From positions 1-23,196 of the IMG/VR virus record IMGVR_UViG_3300044638_003116: a DNA stretch of 23,196 nt; one strand, 5' to 3'. Positions 2,300-13,235 of this stretch are shown here, piece after piece (the first letter of the stretch is position 1; every line of letters starts with the position of its first letter). The notes below the pieces were generated by a model. That model was not told the DNA's origin. It searched no databases and was given only the letters and a program-made list of their open reading frames with translations. Source of the DNA: a virus. The translations under genes and the position numbers were made by a program.

Positions 2300-2730
2300 T
2301 GGATTTAAAAATACAGCCAGTCGGAGTTAATTACGTAGCACAGACTTGGCCTTTTGTAGAAACATATTTGAAGGAAGCGTTAGAAAAAGGAGAGCCGGTA
2401 CCTGAGTGGAGCGACAATTACGACATTTCCCATGTGCAAGGATTTTTGACTTCTGGGATGTGGACGTTGTTAGTTGCTACAGATGATAGTAACCAAGTGC
2501 ATGGGGCAGCAACTGTGTCATTTGCTAATTATCCTAAGAACCGAGTCGCTTTTATAACGCTTATTGGTGGAAAATTAATATCTAATAAAGATACGTTTGA
2601 ACAGATGAGCAACATATTAAGACATGCAGGAGCAACAAAGATTCAAGGAATGGCTCGTCCCGCTATAGCCAGATTGTGGAAGCGGTATGGGTTTGAAGAA
2701 CGCACTACTTTGGTGGAAGTAAAACTATGA
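2299..2730 (+). CDS. GNAT-like protein (degenerate acetyltransferase fold)
   Basis: 143 aa. The ATG at 2299 overlaps the previous stop by one base, and its own stop overlaps the next start (ATGA at 2727), so all three are probably translated together. The predicted pattern of an N-terminal helix (YVAQTWPFVETYLKEALEKG), strands (WTLLVATDD, HGAATVSFANYP, RVAFITLIGGK), a helix and a last strand (GATKIQGMARPAIARLWKRYGFEERTTLVEV) fits the GNAT fold. The ending 'R-p-a-I-A-R-L-W-k-R-y-G-F-E' is the usual end of these phage GNATs. The canonical acetyl-CoA pyrophosphate loop (R/Q-x-x-G-x-G/A) is not visible; 'GGKLISNKDTF' occupies that place. It may therefore bind CoA poorly or not at all, or be a structural or chaperone derivative. 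Such proteins recur among late genes of podovirus-like phages. Fold moderately sure; activity unknown. Confidence 0.6.
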   Translation: MDLKIQPVGVNYVAQTWPFVETYLKEALEKGEPVPEWSDNYDISHVQGFLTSGMWTLLVATDDSNQVHGAATVSFANYPKNRVAFITLIGGKLISNKDTFEQMSNILRHAGATKIQGMARPAIARLWKRYGFEERTTLVEVKL

Positions 2731-5174
2731 GCATATTAAGATCAAAACACAGCGGTTGGACCTGGGAAGGTAAACGTACACCTTTTGGTGGTCCTAGTGG
2801 TGGTGGGGGTCCTCAACAAACTACTTCTTATCAAACAAACCTTCCTGAATATGCCAAGCCTTATGTAGAAACTATGTTGGGCGCTGCTCAGAAGCAGGCT
2901 TACAAATATGACCCCGAAGGCAATATTGTAGGTTTCCAACCCTATGTACCTTATGGTGCCACTGTAGGTCCTGGTGGGGAGATTACTAATACAGCACAAG
3001 AACAAGCAAAAGCAGCAGTGGCTGGGTTTAGTCCTATGCAGGAACGGGCATTTCAACAAACGGCAGATTTAAGAGTTCCTGGACAGTATGGAGTCGGCAG
3101 TCAATTTGTTGGTGCAGGCGGTATGGGTGCGGCGAATATTGCTCAACAAGCTGCTGGTATTGGGCAAGGATATTATGGGATGGCTACTAATCCTTTTGCT
3201 CAGCAATCGTTTATGTCGCCCTACATGCAAAATGTGGTGGATGTTCAAAAACAAGAAGCTACTAGGGATTATTTAAAAACGTTACCTAGCATGCAGGCAC
3301 AAGCTACTCGTCAAGGTGCGTTTGGTGGTTCTCGTTCTGCTATTGAAGCAGCTGAAGCTCGTCGTAATTTAGGCACTCAACTAGGTAGTATTCAAGCTCA
3401 AGGGTCACAAAAAGCGTTTGATGAAGCACAACGAAATATGCAATTTGGCGCTAATTTAGGTCTTCAAGGTTATGGCACTGCACTGCAAGGTACTGGGCAA
3501 TTAAGTCAAGCTGGTAGGTCATTAGCCGATATTGGTGGGCAAGAACTACAAGCTCGTCAAGGGATTATTGGTCTTCAATCTCAGGCTGGTGCACAGCAAC
3601 AAGCTCTTGAACAACAACGAGTTAATCAGGCTATTCAGAATTACGCTTTGCAACAACAAAACCCACAGATGCAGTTGTCTTTAATGAGCAGTTTGCTACG
3701 TGGTTTACCCCTTCAACAAGCTACTACCCAAACATATCAAGCGCCTCCTAGCACTGTTTCTCAGTTCGGTGGTCTTGGTGCCGCAGGTTTGGGTCTATAT
3801 GGTATGGGTCGCTCTGCCGGTATTTTTGGTAAAGAAGGTGGGCATGTTAGGAAGTTAGCTAGTGGTGGTATTACAGGGATGTCTAAAAAGGTGTTGTTAA
3901 ATCCTGAAGACTTTTCTACTCAACAAGTTAAGACTATGATTGACAAGGGTATGATTTCCCAGTTAGTCGGTACCCCTATTCTTGATGCCAAGATGAAAGA
4001 CGAGCAACGCATAAAACTTGTTCAAGCTGCCCAACAACCTAAACCTATTGATACTATCGCTGCTGATATTATGGCTAGAGCCGCAGCCAGCCAAGGTATT
4101 GATAATGCCCCAAGTAATCTACCTGTTATGTCCGCATTTGATGGTGGTATTGTCGCCATGGCTGATGGTGGTGAGGTAGAAAGATTTCAAAATAAAGGCG
4201 CAGTTATAACCAAAGATGATGAAGGCTACGATTTGCCGTATGACCCAAGCATGGGATTCCCAAGATATATTAAAGACCTACCTTCTTATATTGGTGCTAA
4301 AGCAGGACCGTTTTACAGGGGTATGAAAGAACAAATTAAAACTGGAAAAGTTACACCAGGTGCTACGTTTAATCCAGCTTTACAAGATCCTGGCGTCGCT
4401 CCTGTTACTCCTTCGCCCGCTCCTGTTGTTCCGGAACTTGCAAAACCACGAATACTTGACGAACCTAGAGCAAACGCAGCTGCACCCGCAGCTCCAACCC
4501 CTTCTGTTGCAGATACAGGTGGTAAGGGTATTGCCGATATTCTCAAGAGATTTGAAGAGACGCTTGGTAAGGGCGAACAAAGAGATACAGAAGCTAAAAA
4601 AATGGCTTTTTATTCTTCATTGGCTCAGCTTGGCTTTGGTGCTATGGGTGGTACTTCTCGTGACCCTTTTACTAATATTGGTCAAGCAGGTGCTCCAGCC
4701 ATAGCTTCTGGTATGAAAGCATTAACTGATATTGGAGGACGCCAAGAAAAACGTGGTCTTGCCCAGCTCCAAGCTGCTCTTGAAGGTGAAAAACTTAAAG
4801 CCGAATACAGCAAACTTGGCATGATGGCGCCGTATTATAGCTCTGCCGCCGCAGAAAATCTTGCTAAAGCTGATTTCTATAAAAAAGGTGGTGGTAAGGG
4901 TAATACTGGTTTTGGTATTCCTGCAGCAACTTCTCAAAAAATGTTACAAGATCGTTCTGCCGCTTTAGCTAATCCAATGAGTTCACCAATATTTAAATCT
5001 TTAGATCCAACAACTCAAAAGTTTTTAGAAAAAGCAGACAGAAATTCTCCGTCTTATAAAACTGCCATGGCAGAATTTATAAAAGCATATGATATGGAGA
5101 TGAATAGAAATATAAATTTTATAAGAACATTAGGAGGTAAAGGTAGCACAGCTTTACCTGGCGAAGAAAGTTAA
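2727..5174 (+). CDS. Large internal/ejection virion protein with 'GAFGGSR' motif
   Basis: 815 aa, starting at ATG 2727 (ATGA overlap). The N-terminal third holds 'PEYAKPYVETMLGAAQKQAY', 'GFSPMQERAFQQ' and 'SFMSPYMQNVVDVQKQEATR', then GAFGGSR at residues 197-203 followed by Ala/Gln-rich helices. I recall this combination from large internal or tail proteins of podovirus-like phages. A long Gln-rich helical region (~205-320) probably forms coiled coils. A short Gly-rich hydrophobic stretch (~346-366, FGGLGAAGLGLYGMG) could enter a membrane. The motifs EGGHVRKLASGG (from E370) and FDGGIVAMADGGEVERFQNK (from F471) echo the 'GG' motifs of the 506-aa protein upstream. A Pro/Ala linker (~550-600) leads to a helical C-terminal third. 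The placement suggests a T7 gp15-like ejection protein. No catalytic site was recognised. Confidence 0.65.
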   Translation: MSILRSKHSGWTWEGKRTPFGGPSGGGGPQQTTSYQTNLPEYAKPYVETMLGAAQKQAYKYDPEGNIVGFQPYVPYGATVGPGGEITNTAQEQAKAAVAGFSPMQERAFQQTADLRVPGQYGVGSQFVGAGGMGAANIAQQAAGIGQGYYGMATNPFAQQSFMSPYMQNVVDVQKQEATRDYLKTLPSMQAQATRQGAFGGSRSAIEAAEARRNLGTQLGSIQAQGSQKAFDEAQRNMQFGANLGLQGYGTALQGTGQLSQAGRSLADIGGQELQARQGIIGLQSQAGAQQQALEQQRVNQAIQNYALQQQNPQMQLSLMSSLLRGLPLQQATTQTYQAPPSTVSQFGGLGAAGLGLYGMGRSAGIFGKEGGHVRKLASGGITGMSKKVLLNPEDFSTQQVKTMIDKGMISQLVGTPILDAKMKDEQRIKLVQAAQQPKPIDTIAADIMARAAASQGIDNAPSNLPVMSAFDGGIVAMADGGEVERFQNKGAVITKDDEGYDLPYDPSMGFPRYIKDLPSYIGAKAGPFYRGMKEQIKTGKVTPGATFNPALQDPGVAPVTPSPAPVVPELAKPRILDEPRANAAAPAAPTPSVADTGGKGIADILKRFEETLGKGEQRDTEAKKMAFYSSLAQLGFGAMGGTSRDPFTNIGQAGAPAIASGMKALTDIGGRQEKRGLAQLQAALEGEKLKAEYSKLGMMAPYYSSAAAENLAKADFYKKGGGKGNTGFGIPAATSQKMLQDRSAALANPMSSPIFKSLDPTTQKFLEKADRNSPSYKTAMAEFIKAYDMEMNRNINFIRTLGGKGSTALPGEES

Positions 5175-5183
5175 GGAATATTT

Positions 5184-8100
5184 ATGCCACGAGTAGAAAT
5201 ACCGGGGATAGGAATTGTACGCTTTCCAGATAATATGTCTCGTGAAGACATCATGTCTCAAGCTACAGCCATGCAGCTTGAAGCTTCTAAACCACTATCA
5301 TATGATGCACGAGACTTACCTACTTCTGAACTAATTAAAGGTGGATTTAGTCGTGGTATTGAAGGGCTTAAAGGCACTGCGTTTGACCTGCTCCCTGCGT
5401 TAGGCGCTACTCTCATTGGAAAAGACAATTACGCTAAAGAACAATTAAAAGAATATAGCGAACGTATGGCTGCTGAAGAGGCAATTAATCCTACAGCGTA
5501 TAAATCTTATAAAGACGTTGGTAGCATAGGTCAAGCATTTGATTTTGCGGCTGAAACCATAGGTGAGGTTGGCCCTGATATTGCTTCATTCATGCTTGGT
5601 ACTGGTATTGGTACTATTGCTGGTAAACAAATTGCTAAAAAATCATTAGAAAGCACAATAAAAAAAGAAGCTAACGAATTTGCTACTAAAAAAGGATTTA
5701 ACAAAGAAGCTAAAGAAGATTACGCTGAACGTTTAGTAGCTCGTGCAAAAGCAGGGGCTATTGGTGCTAAAGCAAATGAAATTGGTGCTAATGTTGGATT
5801 AAAAACAGGTTTATACGGCACTTCTCTTGGTATTAATGTTCCCGATATTTTTAATAGTATTTATCAAGATACAGGCGAGTTAGCTCCCGGTATTGCATTA
5901 ACAATTGGTCCTTTAGTTGCAGCGTTAGATGCTTATTTACCTAACAAAATATTAGATCAACTTGGTTTAAAAGGTAAAGAACAATTAGCAGCTAGGATGT
6001 TAAAAAAATCAACCGTTGTACCAACCACTTTTAAACGAGCTTTTGCTGGAGAAATATTAAAAACTGGTGCTGGCGAAGCGTTAACTGAAGGTACACAAGA
6101 GGCATTAAGTAAATTTGCTTCTCAACTTGCAGGGGACAAAGACCCATTTTTTTCTAGTGAAAATGTCGACCAAATTATTACGGCTTCGTTAAAAGGTCTT
6201 GTTGGCGGTACCGTGTATGGTGCACCTGGCGCTGCATTTGACGCTAGACGAATAAAAGAACAAAGTTTAAGACAGCCTTTTACAGAAGAACCTCCTCCAA
6301 TAACTCCACTAGGCGCACAGCAAACACAGCCTGATTTGTTTGGTGAACAAGCTCCTGCTACTCCATATGATGCTCGTCAAGCTCAAGTAGATGCTGCTAT
6401 GCAAGCTGTAGCACCACAAGCTGCGGCACAACAAATACCACTAGATTTACAGGGGGGTATGACTCCTGAGCAACAAATAGTTGCGGAACGAGATCGTCAA
6501 AACCAAGAAATGAATCAGTTGTATATTGAGGAAGCACAACAACAATTACAACAAGCTAGAGAACGTGCAACCATTGCAAAAGAAATTCTTGATGAAGAGA
6601 TCTTCCTAACAGACGAGCGTGTTCGTCTTGGTGAGATTAAACGTACTGAAGCAGAGCGTATTAGTTTATTACTACCTATTATTAATAATCTAGAGCGTGG
6701 GACAGAAGACTCTATTAACCTATTCCAACAAGCTTTACGTAGTGCTGGTTACAACAACCTTGAGTTAACTGAAGCCGAACAAAGATTACTGCAAAGAGCA
6801 GACGACGTTAAAACCGCTATTGCTGCATCACTACAAGGTGAGTTAGACCTACAACAACTAGAGTATTCTGCAGCAAATCAACTTACCCCAGATATCACTG
6901 GTATCAAAGAAAAAGGTGAGAAAGGTCCAGCAGGTACACCGAGAGCAGAAGAACCCGGTCAACCTAGATTAGACTTTGGTCCTTTTAAAACACCTCGTGC
7001 TAAATCAGAACCAACAGTAGAAGCTGTGCCGGAAGCAGCGCCTAGTACAGTTTTAGATACTGATACGTTAGACAATACTGGGTTGCCTAAGCAGTCTGGG
7101 TATTATCGGCAACTTGTTAATAAAGATGTATCTAATCCTGAAGATCAAGAAGCTGTGCGTAATATATTGGTTGCTGTTAGGCAGAACCCGAACTTATCAC
7201 CATCTACCAAACAAGCTGTAGAGTCAATAGCAATCCAAGCGTTTAATGCACTGGCTACACAGCAAACATTCCTTGGTCCACGGGGTGGCATTTTAAAAGG
7301 AGCCGATTATGGAAGAGTACGATCTGGACCTACCGGTGGAGTTAGTGGAGCAGGCGTTCCTGTTCCTAGTGAGCAAGCACCGACTGAACCCGCCAAAAGA
7401 ACTAGAGCACCTAAACCACAAAGAGTGGATTCAACTACAGAACCTGTTGATAAGTCTGGAAGTGGAGAAAAGCTGCCAAGCAGTACATTAGAACCAAAGA
7501 AACAAATAACTCCACCGCCACCACCTGCAAAGAAAGTTGCTAAAGAACCTGAAAACATTCCTGTTAATGCATACACTAAAGCATTACGGAAGCGGATAGG
7601 TATCGTCAACGATAAGCTACGCACAGAAACAGATCCGACTGAAAAAGAACTGCTTAGAGACGAGCTTGAAGAACTTAAGCTAAATCTTAGTGACGCAGCT
7701 ATTAACCCACCAGAAGATGCAGAACCAGATACCGGAGGTAGATTCCGTACTGGTGAAGGTACGGGCATGGACAAAGCTGATGTACAGAAGTACATTGCAA
7801 ACGAAATTAAAGGTTGGAAGAATGCTCCACCCGTAAAAGTAATTGAAACTCAGAATCAACTACCTAAGTATCTGCAAGAACAGATTGAGAAAGAAAACAT
7901 AGTTAATCCCAAAGGTGTATGGGACCCACGCACTCAGTCCGTATTTCTTATCTCTAATAACTTAACTAATAATCACGATGCTACATACACTGTCCTGCAT
8001 GAAATCATAGGGCACTTTGGCTTACAGAAGATATTAGGTAGTAAGTTTGACAAGGTAATGGGTGATATTTATAACAGTAACAAAGCTGTTAAAGACCGTG

Positions 8101-11100
8101 CCGATAATAAGATTGCCAACGGCATGGACAAGCTGGTTGCTGTTGAAGAAGTACTGGCTGAGATGGCTGAGACTGCAACTAACCCGTCTTTAATTCAAAA
8201 GGTAGTTAACATTATTCGCCAAGCATTAAGAGCGCTTGGTTTTAATCTTGATACCTTTACTAACGGAGAGATTCTGCAATTACTGCAAGACTCCCGTAAA
8301 TTTGTTACAGGGACTGAAGGTGTTCCTATTGGTGGCAACGTAAAATTTGGCGCCGTATTTAATTCAGATGCCCCCATCTTCTATAGTCAGTTAGCTTCAA
8401 TGGTAGCTGGCGCACCCAAACAACTTAACGTTGCATCAAAAGAACAATGGGCAGCGTGGATTAAAAGTAACGCTGGAAAAAACCAAGTTAAAGAAGAAGA
8501 GATTGAATACAGCGGTGTATTAGACTTCCTTAACACCACTTCCGGCAAAATTAGCCGTAAAGATCTACTTGAGTTTTTAAATCAAGAAGGTGTTCAAGTA
8601 GACACAATTATTCGTGATCAATATGCAACTAATGAAGAAGCTGAAAAGTTTGAATTACTTAAAGATGAAGCTAAAGAAAAAAGACGTTTATTTGCTAAAG
8701 ATTTAAAAAATCGTTTAGATTCAGGAGAAATAAAATTAAATCAATTAATTTCAGAAAAATCTTTAACATACCCACTTATAAATGCTGAAAGAAATCCTAA
8801 TATTAAAGTTGAAAACGAATTTGCAAAAGGGTATATAAAACGTGCTGTTTTATATAGAGATACACGTAAATGGATGGTCATGCAAAATGAAGATTTTAAT
8901 ACCTATAGCGTTTATGACACTAATAAAACTTTAGATGAACCAGCTATTGCTTTTGAAGATGAAGCATCTAATTACAGATCAAGATTTTCGACAGCAGATC
9001 AAGCACGAGAAGCTTTAGCAGAGTTTAATCTTAAAATGCAAGATAGATTTCCAAATGGTGGGGTAGATATTTATGATCAGTATATAGACTTAAATACTCA
9101 AGTAAGAACTTTTTCAGAAAAAGCAGAAAGTGCTAAAGAAGGTTTAGCCCCACAATATGCAGGATATACTCTAGGTCCAGAAGTTTCAACTAATTACGCC
9201 GAGCTTATCTTAACTTTACTACCTAGTAAGCAACGTAAAGAATACAAAATAGTTGAATACACTGACGGTATTATTACTAGTCTTTTTAAAGTTGTTGATG
9301 CTGAAGGTAACACGTTGGCAGATGACATCCTTAGTATGCAAACAGCTGAAGAAATAAAAGATGGTTTGGATAAAGATGGTATTACATTATACGAACATGT
9401 GCATTGGGCTAACGTTAACAATCCAATAGTACACGTTCGGGTTAATGAAAAGACCGACGATAAAGGCAACCGTGTATTATTTGTAGAAGAACTGCAATCT
9501 GACTGGGGTCAAGCATACGCAACTAATAAAGAACCAAATGTAGAAGTATTAGCACCGTTTGAAAACGACCGTCTAGGTGGTTATTATTCCGCTTATATTG
9601 ATGGCACTAGAGTTGCAAGAGCGTCTACAGCAGAACAAGCTCGTGAAGAAGCTTTAGAGTTTTGGGAAACCCATATTAAAGATAATGTAGCTAAAGCACC
9701 ATTTGTAACAGATCCACGCTCATATACCGCACTTGCTATTAAACGTTTGCTTCGTTATGCCGCAGATACTGGCTACAGTAAAATTTCGTTTATTAGTGGA
9801 ATAGAAGCACACAATCGTTTTCCCAAAACACAAGATGGTGAAAGTACTAAAAAGGGTATGGAAACCCACTATGATGTGCGCATTCCTAGTGTAACTAGAG
9901 ATATATTTAAAAAACTAGGTATTAATCCTAACTCACGCATAGAAGAAATAGCGGTGCGATTCCCTCAAGATGTATATAGCCTTGAACTTACAAGTGAAGA
10001 TGGCAGTACTACTATAGAAGAAAAAAATATTGATGCACCTGAAATTGATGGCCTTATATTAGATGGGTATTTTAGAATGTATGGTTCATACCCTAAGTTT
10101 ACAAAAGATTATTACGACCCTGTTACACAAGAAATTTTCTATAAAAAAGGAGACCGTTTACGTTCTAACGTAAAACTACAAAACGCAATAAATAGAGGCA
10201 TGGATATACAAGAAATACTTGTTGACTCTGTTACACCTTCAATGAAAGTTAAAATAGAATCAAAACAAAGTAGTACAACAGAACCATTCTTTACTATCGA
10301 CCTTACTCCTGAAACCAAAGAGAAAATTAAACGTGGTCAGCCTATGTTCCGTGCGGCTCGTTTCAGTACTGGTGCTGGTGCTACTTTCCGTAATAATCCT
10401 GCTGCGCCGGGGATAAATGGGAACGACGCTAGAACCGTCTTCGATAGTTTTGCTGACAGAATTGAAAGCGCAGGGATATTAAACTCCGAACGTGCAGATA
10501 GCTTACATGAATTTATTAAAAACGGTATTTTCGGTAATGCCCGCAAAGCATTACTTTACACGTTACCTGTTAAGCCTTTAACAGAAGAAGCTAAACGTGC
10601 CGGTTTAAAAATGGCCCCTCAGTTTAATACAATCATTGATGAACAATCAGGATATGTAAATAGCTTGAATCGTCGTATCGAGCCTTTGGTTCAACGTGCT
10701 GAAGCTTGGGCTAAAGGTGCTGGGCAAAAACAAATAGACTTATTTAACAAGGTAGTTTACGACAGCACAATCCTTAAAGCCGACCCAACCAAACTTAAGA
10801 AGGCAAGCGTTTCTCAGGCTGATTATGACCTAGTAAAAAATAACTACGATAAGTTAGGTGGTGCAGGTAAGTCTTTATACGTACAGATTCGTGACGGTTA
10901 CGCTGAAATGTACCAAGAAATCCTTGATTCTATTGAAGACCGTATAAATACGTTTGAAATTGGTAACGATGCAAAAGCAAAGATTAAACAAGACATCTTA
11001 GATAAGCTTTCTAAACAAGGTAAGATTGACCCCTACTTTGCGTTAACCCGTAAAGGTAAGTACTGGCTATCGTATAACTTAAAAAATGAACCATACATTG

Positions 11101-13235
11101 AAGCTTACACAACTGAACGTGAGCGTACAAAACAAGCAGCTTTAGTTAAAAACGAAGGTGCTACAGATGTACAAGCGTTCTCTCAAATATCTCAGTATAG
11201 GTATAGCCGTGCGCCATCCGGTTCGTTTGTAAACAATATGCTAAAAATTTTGGAGCTTAATAAGCCAAAGGGTCTATCTAAGGAAGCCTCAGATAAATAC
11301 AATCAAGCTGCCGATGAAGTGATGCGCTTGTATCTAAGCACCTTGCCTGAAACATCTTTTGCACAATCATTCCAAAAGCGTAAAGAAACCCTTGGATTTA
11401 AACGAGACGCTATTGAAGCTATGCGTGACCGGATGTACAGCACGTCTCAACAACTTGGTCGTATGCGGTACTCGGCAAAACTTAATAAGTTATTAGAAGA
11501 AATGCGTGAATATTCCAAACTTGTTAGTAAGGGTATGAACGCAGAGGGTGAAGAAGTTACCCAACAAGATAACAAGTTAATGAACGACTATATAAGCGTA
11601 CTGGAAAAACACGCTGAGTCTATTAACAATCCTAATGTTAGCAATATTTCTAGGTTAATTAACTCCCTTGGATTTAACTATTTACTAGGTTTAAACATAT
11701 CTTCTGCTGTAATTAACTTGGGTCAAGTGCCTATGGTTGTAGCACCTTATCTTGCCGGTGAGCATGGATGGGGCGAAACAATGTCTGCGGTTAATAGAGC
11801 TTACAAACTATATTTAAATAGTGGCTACGGTAAAGATGCCCGTGCAGTTGAAGTAATTGGTACAGAAAAACGAGATTTAAAAGGCAACATAATTACTCCT
11901 GCTGAAAAGGTTAAGCAGCGTGGTATGCCGTCTATTAGTAACTATGATCTAAATAGTGCTGAAGGTAAGAAGTATGGTACTTTAATTGAACAGGCACAGA
12001 AACAAGGTCAAATTAATCAGTCACAGTTCTACGATATTTTAGAAGTTGATGGTCGCAAAAACTTTGGAAGCACAGTAAATGCTGTTACCGGTTTTGCATT
12101 CCACCACGGAGATCGTATAAACCGTGAAGTATCTATGGTAGCTGCATATGACTTACAGTTAGCTAAACTAAAGAGTCAAGGTAAAACAGGCAAAGAAGCT
12201 GAGATTGAAGCTGCTAATTACGCAATCTATATAACCGAAATGACTAATGGTGGAGTGTCGGCAGCTAGTTCTCCTTTAATTGCTAAAGGTAATATTGGTA
12301 GAGTACTCTTTATGTTCAAACGCTACGGCGTTTCTATGTATTACATGCTATTTAAGATAACACGTGAAGCACTCAAAGGAGAAACCCCAGAAATACGTAA
12401 AGCCGCTATGAGTCAACTTGCTGGTGTTTATGGCACGTCAGCTTTGTTCTCTGGTTTACAAGGTGTACCAATGTTTGGTATTGCCGCTATGGTTTACAAC
12501 TTGTTTGCAGATGAAGATGAAGACGATATGGAGACTGCAACCCGTAAATACGTTGGCGAATTTGCCTATAAAGGTATGCTGAACTATGTTACCGGTGCTG
12601 AAGTTGCTAGTCGTTTCAGCTTAAGTGACCTGATATTTAGAAGTAACCCAACAGCAAACTCCCGTACATTTGAGCAAGGTCTTTTAGAAAACATTGGCGG
12701 TCCTGCATACGGTGTAATGTCACGGATTAAACGTGGTTTAGACTTTATGAGCGAAGGTAATATGGAGCGTGGTATTGAAAATATCCTGCCATCAGCTATT
12801 AGTAACTTGTTTAAAGCATATCGTTTTGGAACAGAAGGCGCCCAGAGTTTACGTGGTGATCCAATTGTAGAAGATATTAATGCGTTTAGTATTGCTGCTC
12901 AAGCTATGGGATTTGCCCCAGCAGACTATGTACGTCAGTTAGAAATAAACTCTAACTTAAAAGGTATTGAAAAAACTATTCTTCAAGAAAAATCTAAGCT
13001 ACTTCAAAAGTGGAACGTCGCTACTCGTATGGGTGACACCGAAGCGGCAAAAGAATATAAAGACGAACTTTTAGAATTAAACAGAAAACATCCTGATCTT
13101 GGAATTTCTGAAGATACTTTCCAACGTTCCGAAAGAGCCTTTAAAGAAGCTACTAAACGTACAGTAAATGGTGTTCAGTTTAGCCAAAAACTTTACGATC
13201 AAATGATGAGGAACGCTGCTGAGTACGATAGGTAA
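5184..13235 (+). CDS. Giant polyvalent virion protein with HExxGH metallopeptidase motif and C-terminal LPD38/PLxRFG-like region
   Basis: 2683 aa, ATG 5184 after AAGGA. Residues 1-35 (VEIPGIGIVRFPDNMSREDI) match the short leader seen on many phage ejection proteins. Residues ~110-360 carry Gly-rich hydrophobic segments fit for membrane insertion (FMLGTGIGTIAGK, PGIALTIGPLVAAL, LKGLVGGTVYGAPGAA). Residues ~433-560 are Gln/Glu-rich coiled coil and ~565-800 are Pro-rich linker. HEIIGH at 939-944 with EEVLAEMAE at 988-996 forms a gluzincin-like zinc-peptidase signature of the type found in phage polyvalent proteins. FVEELQSDW (1433-1441) and the DPRSYTALAIKRLLRYAADT segment (from D1510) match a recurrent polyvalent-protein module of unknown function. 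From ~2160 to the end lies a helical region resembling the LPD38/PLxRFG domain. Such proteins are thought to be packaged and delivered with the DNA (Iyer and colleagues' 'polyvalent proteins'). No lysozyme or transglycosylase motif was seen. Confidence 0.75.
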   Translation: MPRVEIPGIGIVRFPDNMSREDIMSQATAMQLEASKPLSYDARDLPTSELIKGGFSRGIEGLKGTAFDLLPALGATLIGKDNYAKEQLKEYSERMAAEEAINPTAYKSYKDVGSIGQAFDFAAETIGEVGPDIASFMLGTGIGTIAGKQIAKKSLESTIKKEANEFATKKGFNKEAKEDYAERLVARAKAGAIGAKANEIGANVGLKTGLYGTSLGINVPDIFNSIYQDTGELAPGIALTIGPLVAALDAYLPNKILDQLGLKGKEQLAARMLKKSTVVPTTFKRAFAGEILKTGAGEALTEGTQEALSKFASQLAGDKDPFFSSENVDQIITASLKGLVGGTVYGAPGAAFDARRIKEQSLRQPFTEEPPPITPLGAQQTQPDLFGEQAPATPYDARQAQVDAAMQAVAPQAAAQQIPLDLQGGMTPEQQIVAERDRQNQEMNQLYIEEAQQQLQQARERATIAKEILDEEIFLTDERVRLGEIKRTEAERISLLLPIINNLERGTEDSINLFQQALRSAGYNNLELTEAEQRLLQRADDVKTAIAASLQGELDLQQLEYSAANQLTPDITGIKEKGEKGPAGTPRAEEPGQPRLDFGPFKTPRAKSEPTVEAVPEAAPSTVLDTDTLDNTGLPKQSGYYRQLVNKDVSNPEDQEAVRNILVAVRQNPNLSPSTKQAVESIAIQAFNALATQQTFLGPRGGILKGADYGRVRSGPTGGVSGAGVPVPSEQAPTEPAKRTRAPKPQRVDSTTEPVDKSGSGEKLPSSTLEPKKQITPPPPPAKKVAKEPENIPVNAYTKALRKRIGIVNDKLRTETDPTEKELLRDELEELKLNLSDAAINPPEDAEPDTGGRFRTGEGTGMDKADVQKYIANEIKGWKNAPPVKVIETQNQLPKYLQEQIEKENIVNPKGVWDPRTQSVFLISNNLTNNHDATYTVLHEIIGHFGLQKILGSKFDKVMGDIYNSNKAVKDRADNKIANGMDKLVAVEEVLAEMAETATNPSLIQKVVNIIRQALRALGFNLDTFTNGEILQLLQDSRKFVTGTEGVPIGGNVKFGAVFNSDAPIFYSQLASMVAGAPKQLNVASKEQWAAWIKSNAGKNQVKEEEIEYSGVLDFLNTTSGKISRKDLLEFLNQEGVQVDTIIRDQYATNEEAEKFELLKDEAKEKRRLFAKDLKNRLDSGEIKLNQLISEKSLTYPLINAERNPNIKVENEFAKGYIKRAVLYRDTRKWMVMQNEDFNTYSVYDTNKTLDEPAIAFEDEASNYRSRFSTADQAREALAEFNLKMQDRFPNGGVDIYDQYIDLNTQVRTFSEKAESAKEGLAPQYAGYTLGPEVSTNYAELILTLLPSKQRKEYKIVEYTDGIITSLFKVVDAEGNTLADDILSMQTAEEIKDGLDKDGITLYEHVHWANVNNPIVHVRVNEKTDDKGNRVLFVEELQSDWGQAYATNKEPNVEVLAPFENDRLGGYYSAYIDGTRVARASTAEQAREEALEFWETHIKDNVAKAPFVTDPRSYTALAIKRLLRYAADTGYSKISFISGIEAHNRFPKTQDGESTKKGMETHYDVRIPSVTRDIFKKLGINPNSRIEEIAVRFPQDVYSLELTSEDGSTTIEEKNIDAPEIDGLILDGYFRMYGSYPKFTKDYYDPVTQEIFYKKGDRLRSNVKLQNAINRGMDIQEILVDSVTPSMKVKIESKQSSTTEPFFTIDLTPETKEKIKRGQPMFRAARFSTGAGATFRNNPAAPGINGNDARTVFDSFADRIESAGILNSERADSLHEFIKNGIFGNARKALLYTLPVKPLTEEAKRAGLKMAPQFNTIIDEQSGYVNSLNRRIEPLVQRAEAWAKGAGQKQIDLFNKVVYDSTILKADPTKLKKASVSQADYDLVKNNYDKLGGAGKSLYVQIRDGYAEMYQEILDSIEDRINTFEIGNDAKAKIKQDILDKLSKQGKIDPYFALTRKGKYWLSYNLKNEPYIEAYTTERERTKQAALVKNEGATDVQAFSQISQYRYSRAPSGSFVNNMLKILELNKPKGLSKEASDKYNQAADEVMRLYLSTLPETSFAQSFQKRKETLGFKRDAIEAMRDRMYSTSQQLGRMRYSAKLNKLLEEMREYSKLVSKGMNAEGEEVTQQDNKLMNDYISVLEKHAESINNPNVSNISRLINSLGFNYLLGLNISSAVINLGQVPMVVAPYLAGEHGWGETMSAVNRAYKLYLNSGYGKDARAVEVIGTEKRDLKGNIITPAEKVKQRGMPSISNYDLNSAEGKKYGTLIEQAQKQGQINQSQFYDILEVDGRKNFGSTVNAVTGFAFHHGDRINREVSMVAAYDLQLAKLKSQGKTGKEAEIEAANYAIYITEMTNGGVSAASSPLIAKGNIGRVLFMFKRYGVSMYYMLFKITREALKGETPEIRKAAMSQLAGVYGTSALFSGLQGVPMFGIAAMVYNLFADEDEDDMETATRKYVGEFAYKGMLNYVTGAEVASRFSLSDLIFRSNPTANSRTFEQGLLENIGGPAYGVMSRIKRGLDFMSEGNMERGIENILPSAISNLFKAYRFGTEGAQSLRGDPIVEDINAFSIAAQAMGFAPADYVRQLEINSNLKGIEKTILQEKSKLLQKWNVATRMGDTEAAKEYKDELLELNRKHPDLGISEDTFQRSERAFKEATKRTVNGVQFSQKLYDQMMRNAAEYDR

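Follow-up and report, generated by a model that had tools for sequence, protein, structure and literature searches.

A giant phage protein encoded in the virus record IMGVR_UViG_3300044638_003116 carries what is probably a zinc metallopeptidase. The window, as the whole stretch of 23,196 bases is called here, holds one open reading frame (ORF) for a protein of 2683 amino acids (aa), and a zincin-type metallopeptidase domain within this ejection-type protein is well supported by conservation among relatives, a structural model and family matches. Its most likely role, to which we give about an even chance, is the processing of the giant protein itself or of partners ejected with it. A single ORF of this length, the motif HEIIGH at residue 939 (base 7998) and a glutamate, E988, lying 44 residues past H944 had all been claimed in an earlier reading of the bare sequence (the original prediction), and these positions were confirmed. 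The features that carry the argument are as follows.

5184-13235, plus strand: giant ORF, a polyvalent PLxRFG-tail protein with the peptidase (2683 aa; matches to NF032893, LPD39 and phrog_10089)
7773-8333, plus strand: zincin-like metallopeptidase domain, residues 864-1050 (alignments A1 and A4, AlphaFold2 model, omega)
7914-7916, plus strand: G911, an invariant glycine ahead of the last strand of the domain (48/48 rows of A4)
7998-8015, plus strand: HEIIGH, residues 939-944, with H939 and H944 as predicted metal ligands and E940 as predicted general base (48/48 rows of A4)
8145-8147, plus strand: E988, variable in relatives (R, K or D in several)
8148-8150, plus strand: E989, predicted third metal ligand (46/47 rows of A4; invariant in A1)

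Predicted active site and fold of the peptidase domain

The first motif has the form HExxxH, with three residues between E940 and H944, and the second, EEVLAE, covers residues 988-993. HExxH occurs nowhere in the 2683-aa protein according to a whole-protein motif scan. A classical HExxH gluzincin was therefore rejected on spacing: what stands of the gluzincin-like site originally proposed is a zincin-type metallopeptidase, with a bulged HExxxH in place of HExxH. An HExxH version does occur naturally in the alignment, in the archaeal Methanosarcina virus MetMV, where the motif reads HELTH and is one residue shorter.

Short motifs of this kind can arise by chance in a stretch that is no enzyme. 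HExxxH alone appeared in 12 of 2000 shuffles of the giant protein, HExxH or HExxxH appeared in 29, and the window protein matches no Pfam or NCBIfam peptidase family. The full pair, HExx(x)H followed by EExxA 35-60 residues downstream, was seen in 0/2000 shuffles, however, and the active-site residues are kept in relatives at only 18-32% identity, which makes a fortuitous motif scarcely credible.

Relatives retrieved without any pattern carry the same site. Plain tblastn with the peptidase domain returned 119 phage records (E limit 10) and eight plasmid records (E limit 0.1), and 19 of these relatives were examined (11/119 phage records and 8/8 plasmid records). All 19 contain HExx(x)H, 18 as HExxxH and one, that of MetMV, as HExxH, and the glutamate of the second motif is clear in 18, that of a Moraxella bovis plasmid protein being ambiguous. 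The set includes near-copies, namely Vibrio phage K249 with two other Vibrio phages, and BF1-TP2 with a Parabacteroides plasmid. Six of the eight plasmid relatives are annotated as LPD or PLxRFG proteins. A K249-type query against viral contigs confirmed none of 12 stretches.

Alignment A1 joins the window to one relative at 92% identity and nine at 21-26%, and invariance in it is confined to five columns, H939, E940, H944, G946 and E989. The strictly invariant columns of the larger alignment A4 (48 sequences) are G911, H939, E940 and H944, and G946 is glycine in 45/48 rows. Because the HE motif sat in the search patterns behind some rows of A4, the H/E/H conservation in those rows mostly reflects how they were found. 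No pattern contained E989 or G946, and G911 was part of two. The motif is carried by 75 of 76 loci, the exception (L037) being interrupted by a change of frame. Removal of near-duplicates reduced the 75 to 47. One further locus, L004, was excluded, its sequence starting inside the motif. The L003 row of A1 and A2 is displaced by 67 residues and ends shortly past the second motif. A similar displacement affects the L002 row of A3, an alignment that enters no count.

These alignments bear on which glutamate completes the metal site. The original prediction had named E988, but this position is replaced by R, K or D in relatives, whereas E989 is glutamate in 46 of the 47 non-gap rows of A4. E988 was accordingly rejected, in A1 as in A4, and the third ligand is likely E989. 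For two loci, L083 and L084, a script found no clear second glutamate; L083 has a long stretch past its HE motif, which contains the twin-arginine-like RRSFLQG.

An AlphaFold2 model of residues 864-1063, built on A4, reached a predicted local distance difference test score (pLDDT) of 74.8 and a predicted template modelling score (pTM) of 0.69. Its elements, in model positions, are a helix (2-12), three strands (21-24, 48-51 and 56-60), the helix with HEIIGH (67-82) and a later helix with E989 (120-134). Between the last two lie three helices, two of them shorter and one of comparable length, and further helices follow. A VIA-align comparison lists a predicted zincin-like protease first (Z 6.0, over 73 aligned residues, 3.5 Å), and zincins of the lethal-factor, Wss1, selecase and IrrE kinds recur in lower rows, mixed with unrelated chains. 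Among viral models, ten matched at E <= 0.001; three of these bear the name large polyvalent protein and one that of a MuF protein. Weak hints of a zincin also come from Pfam M76, which matches two of the 11 A1 members (best E 0.0079), and from phrog_19077, a 'protease' matching the domain at E 0.034. A sequence profile set against the zincin-like protease that tops the VIA-align list gave E 1.2, and DUF6647 matches 6/48 A4 members (best E 0.0017). A Pfam match to HTH_51 at residues 1003-1034 (E 0.0011, 19.1 bits) was set aside as below its cut-off of 50.

Several of these results weigh against the assignment. Rows 2-4 of the VIA-align list are a mycobacterial transcriptional regulator, by title no peptidase. 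Scores against the PDB are weak (best Foldseek E 0.24, best Z 6.0) and could reflect a mere common arrangement of elements. No Pfam or NCBIfam peptidase family scores above its cut-off in the giant protein or in the members of A1 and A4. The structural comparison is thus weak by these scores and leans towards a zincin.

If the assignment is right, residues 864-1050 would fold as a zincin and act as a zinc metallopeptidase, one of the HEXXXH type known from polyvalent proteins of phages. The metal would be held by H939, H944 and E989, and E940 would activate the water, with one extra residue bulging the active-site helix.

Layout of the giant protein and its possibly exchangeable parts

Around the peptidase, the following features were recognised.

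2727-5174, plus strand: 815-aa DNA-ejection-protein-like protein just upstream of the giant ORF (phrog_4287 'DNA ejection protein', E 2.2e-8)
8334-10553, plus strand: stretch from the peptidase to LPD39, residues 1051-1790, diverged in L003 and not in L002
9147-10353, plus strand: unnamed domain, residues ~1322-1723, with HVHWANVNNPIVHVRVN and EELQSDWGQ, common to the giant proteins L009, L040, L044 and L067
10536-11012, plus strand: LPD39 domain, residues 1785-1943 (PF18858, E 7.8e-8, 32.7 bits, cut-off 27)
11031-13193, plus strand: PLxRFG-type C-terminal tail, residues 1950-2670 (NF032893, E 4.8e-115; alignment A7)

Because it combines LPD39, the PLxRFG tail and a match to the 'DarB-like antirestriction' family phrog_10089 (E 1.3e-75), the giant protein belongs to the polyvalent proteins as Iyer et al. 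2017 use that term (PMC5512222). The tail scores 385.6 bits, well over the curated NF032893 cut-off of 100. The literal PLxRFG motif is not present in the giant protein, the aligned place reading ALTRKG; the motif gives the family its name and is not a criterion of the profile. The protein is probably carried in the virus particle. The original prediction had also placed membrane-penetrating segments at the N-terminus, and these found no support. The best 19-residue Kyte-Doolittle window of the protein reaches 1.47 (start 233-234) against a threshold of 1.6, and the other peaks (1.44 at 2419 and 1.39 at 2168) both lie in the C-terminal tail. N-terminal transmembrane segments are therefore not supported by hydropathy, a measure that does not bear on amphipathic insertion.

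Comparison with two close relatives, L003 and L002 (IMGVR_UViG_3300034120_001427), indicates which parts of the protein are held. The peptidase is 91% identical to that of L003, with an omega of 0.086, and omega is 0.041 against L002; it is strongly constrained by purifying selection. LPD39 and the tail are likewise similar in L003 (94% identity, omega 0.10). Residues 1051-1790, which follow the peptidase, fall to 52-53% identity with L003 (omega 0.45-0.71) and keep 95-98% with L002. Both relatives thus retain peptidase and tail, and one of the two shows divergence or replacement of the intervening stretch. For most of the relatives fetched, the match to the window protein at E 1e-3 is limited to the peptidase domain (many of the loci hold a part-length protein), so the domain appears to move as a module.

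The unnamed domain lies within the stretch that differs in L003. A Pfam scan gives no match to it at family cut-off, and a search of viral contigs with residues 1322-1733 returned two loci only, both on contigs of close relatives.

L002 differs from the window in a further respect. From residue 852 on it is 95% identical, and directly before the peptidase it carries 343 extra aa (8945-9973 of L002), which are absent from the window and from L003. L004 is equally close and begins at residue 943, so that the region upstream lies outside its sequence. The insert itself matches no Pfam family at E 0.1, and among PDB sequences only unrelated ones, with a best E of 0.0027. Its AlphaFold2 model (pLDDT 72.3, pTM 0.74) resembles L,D-transpeptidases of the YkuD kind: the first 39 Foldseek rows are L,D-transpeptidases or related proteins, with a best E of 1.5e-4 and query TM-scores of 0.30-0.46. 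These rows include Pgp2, Tlde1a and DpaA, which we take to share the L,D-transpeptidase fold.

This domain is not confined to L002. Eight further giant phage proteins (L095-L102) carry it, and H...SxGC[IV]N is found in 9/9 loci (counting L094, which is L002's contig), although part of this motif stood in one of the six search patterns. Pfam YkuD matches two of four scanned proteins of the L095-L102 type, at best with E 1.8e-4 and 22.6 bits, below the cut-off of 23.4. All eight have HExx(x)H, 287-546 residues past the start of the matched stretch, and the tail of the window is matched by three of them. The main text of PMC5512222 mentions neither YkuD nor transpeptidase.

The original prediction had found no cell-wall enzyme. 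By Pfam, this holds within the window; it does not extend to L002, where the transpeptidase-like insert directly precedes the peptidase. Of the three roles offered in the original prediction, one is that the peptidase domain itself cleaves peptidoglycan stem peptides during entry; the others are the processing of co-injected proteins and the cleavage of host defence proteins. The ejection-type gene context would suit wall cleavage, the neighbouring module in L002 points to possible contact between giant protein and cell wall, and a PHROG named endolysin matches the domain at E 1.8e-5, over part of a 1277-position profile. The wall-peptidase families of Pfam and NCBIfam are, however, without a match, and the wall enzyme, where one is seen, is a separate module. 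Wall cleavage by the peptidase is consequently ranked last among the functional readings and seems very unlikely.

The rightward gene series of the window closes with the giant ORF. Leftward genes encode a family A DNA polymerase, an SNF2-type helicase, a PD-(D/E)XK nuclease and a DUF927 protein. A 143-aa ORF at 2299-2730, without a Pfam match at 0.01, lies roughly where Skulduggery, RHph_TM29 and ZX1 carry an N-acyltransferase gene upstream of their giant protein.

Zincin-like motifs ahead of the tail and the likely role of the peptidase

Less expected was a zincin-like motif that precedes this C-terminal tail in many related phage proteins. In PLxRFG proteins of named phages, HExx(x)H was present in 5/5, against whole-protein shuffle rates of 3-13%; six records had been fetched, and Itty13, whose gene is cut near the record end and which has only the tail part, was not counted. 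Cultured relatives with the motif before their tail include Pseudomonas phage Skulduggery of P. fluorescens SBW25 (HEAFH) and Vibrio phage douglas 12A4 of V. fischeri (HELITH). A tail search of IMG/VR gave 105 loci, of which 80 were kept, and 59 or 57 were used after short upstream stretches and near-duplicates had been dropped. Non-redundant loci with 300 aa or more upstream number 59, and in 35 of them HExx(x)H lies within the 450 aa before the tail match or in its first 60 residues, compared with 1/59 in a control stretch and 2.8% in shuffles. With the limit widened to 1100 aa before the tail, the motif is found in 47 of 57 non-redundant PLxRFG-tail proteins where 2.5 would be expected, and the controls stand at 1/42 for a stretch farther upstream and 1/57 for the tail itself.

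The motif nearest the tail is HExxH in 21 of these 47 proteins and HExxxH in 26, a split that may include a few second, chance motifs (for example at -27 in L152) and in which zincin identity is judged by motif only. The position therefore recurs while the form of the motif changes. In the window, the motif lies far from the tail, at about 1011 residues, because residues 1051-1790 intervene.

These statistics suggest where a cut may lie, and they inform the preferred reading, in which the peptidase would sit between variable cargo and the conserved PLxRFG tail. Its substrate would be the giant protein, cut in cis, or partners from the ejection block. The cut would fall at maturation, inside the head or following entry, and would separate domains from one another or release them from the tail. 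Self-processing of polyvalent proteins has been proposed in PMC5512222, citing P1 DdrB. Two observations speak against it. According to the same source, such a domain is also present in the virion RNA polymerase of N4, and that protein is packaged without being cut; moreover, ten of the 57 PLxRFG proteins carry no HExx(x)H within 1100 aa upstream of the tail (L123, L126, L128, L129, L134, L135, L136, L163, L165 and L166, nine of which were covered by a near-motif scan), so that the arrangement is not universal. Processing of the protein or its partners is nevertheless put first, because the catalytic residues are the best kept, the domain lies between cargo and tail, and the P1 DdrB argument was weighed against the uncut N4 polymerase.

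The second reading is that the peptidase is an injected effector, which after entry cuts host proteins, such as those of defence or regulation. PMC5512222 predicts that polyvalent proteins are injected and then act on the host, and the varying motif form (21 against 26) is what an arms race driven by the target could give. The recurrent place before the tail and the low omega in two close relatives better fit a target within the phage, however, and a host target was indicated by none of the analyses run. An effector role is therefore considered unlikely, if still the next to be entertained after self- or partner-processing.

The N4 polymerase also underlies a third reading, in which peptidase and tail form a packaging unit and catalysis is dispensable. 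Its C-terminal region with such a domain is needed for encapsidation and the protein is packaged unprocessed (PMC5512222), and HExx(x)H ahead of the tail in 47/57 relatives would agree with a structural part. A scaffold alone would not need the catalytic glutamate and metal ligands, which are among the best-kept positions, and this role is accordingly held to be improbable, ahead only of wall cleavage.

A broader and more tentative proposal, which we consider possible but would not favour, is that PLxRFG giant proteins share a 'protease slot' before the tail. This slot would be filled by interchangeable zincins of HExxH or HExxxH form and, in some lineages, preceded by an L,D-transpeptidase cassette. 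The whole would be a delivery unit of cargo, self-cutting protease and packaging or ejection tail; phages would swap its protease and cargo among themselves and retain the slot. Neither the regular motif before the tail nor its L,D-transpeptidase neighbour was found in the literature searched, which excludes most subscription journals. The name PLxRFG does not occur in the available text of PMC5512222, where the tail may appear under another name (e.g. LPD38).

The analysis thus offers a specific predicted protease (E940 with H939, H944 and E989) among giant phage proteins of a class on which almost no functional literature was found. If the peptidase does free cargo from the tail, phages would share a trick of RNA-virus polyproteins, with many activities shipped in one chain and cut later. 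Polyprotein-like processing was put forward by Iyer et al. 2017 (PMC5512222), and a test of it for this group was not found in the literature searched.

Comparison with known systems

The active site of the window domain resembles that of M49 peptidases. Rat dipeptidyl peptidase III (DPP III) combines HEXXGH with EEXR(K)AE(D), and its ligand is Glu508 of EECRAE (PMC5667867, available text); HEIIGH and EEVLAE follow this pair, with E989 placed like Glu508. In M49 proteins of Bacteroidales genomes the two motifs are HECLGH and EEARAD, and a weaker M49 match reads HEVAH. The window domain has about 190 aa against 546-686 aa in the fetched M49 matches. The M49 profile PF03571 does not match the giant protein up to E 10 and detects members in 4/4 bacterial genomes. 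A comparison by hhalign with the M49 alignment A5 was not significant (probability 0.9%, E 0.059, second motifs unpaired), the M49 side holding only four sequences. DPP III entries are absent among the 50 PDB rows listed, which excludes nothing. The M49 fold, two domains around a cleft, is neither favoured nor disfavoured by these lists, into which a single modelled domain of 200 aa was entered. M49 membership was rejected on the profile comparison and the missing Pfam match, leaving a likeness of the active site only; interpreted cautiously, the two have converged on similar bulged metal sites.

MPTase-PolyVal (PF18818) is by its Pfam name a polyvalent-protein metallopeptidase, as the window domain would be. 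This family carries HExxH. It does not match the giant protein up to E 10 and is absent from the 25 families listed for A4 members; its profile found nothing in three genomes and nothing in 14 control genomes either, so that the search has no positive control.

With PLxRFG/DarB-like phage proteins (NF032893, phrog_10089), the window protein shares a zincin-like motif and, following it, the C-terminal 700 aa. Unlike these proteins, it has no match to methylase or helicase families of Pfam.

The closest likeness in kind is to the zincin-like HEXXXH metallopeptidases that Iyer et al. 2017 (PMC5512222) already describe in polyvalent proteins. Their core, as given in the available text, consists of an N-terminal helix, a three-stranded sheet and two C-terminal helices, with a presumed bend in the HEXXXH helix and a later glutamate in a C-terminal helix. 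The HEXXXH motif, the later glutamate in a helix and the setting in an LPD-containing giant phage protein are all common to the window domain, whose model places a helix, three strands and two later helices in the same order. No difference from this HEXXXH set was found in a comparison of motifs, order of core elements and domain setting; Iyer et al. distinguish 12 clades. As the HEXXXH polyvalent-protein peptidase is already published, the domain of the window would be a further example of the kind described there.

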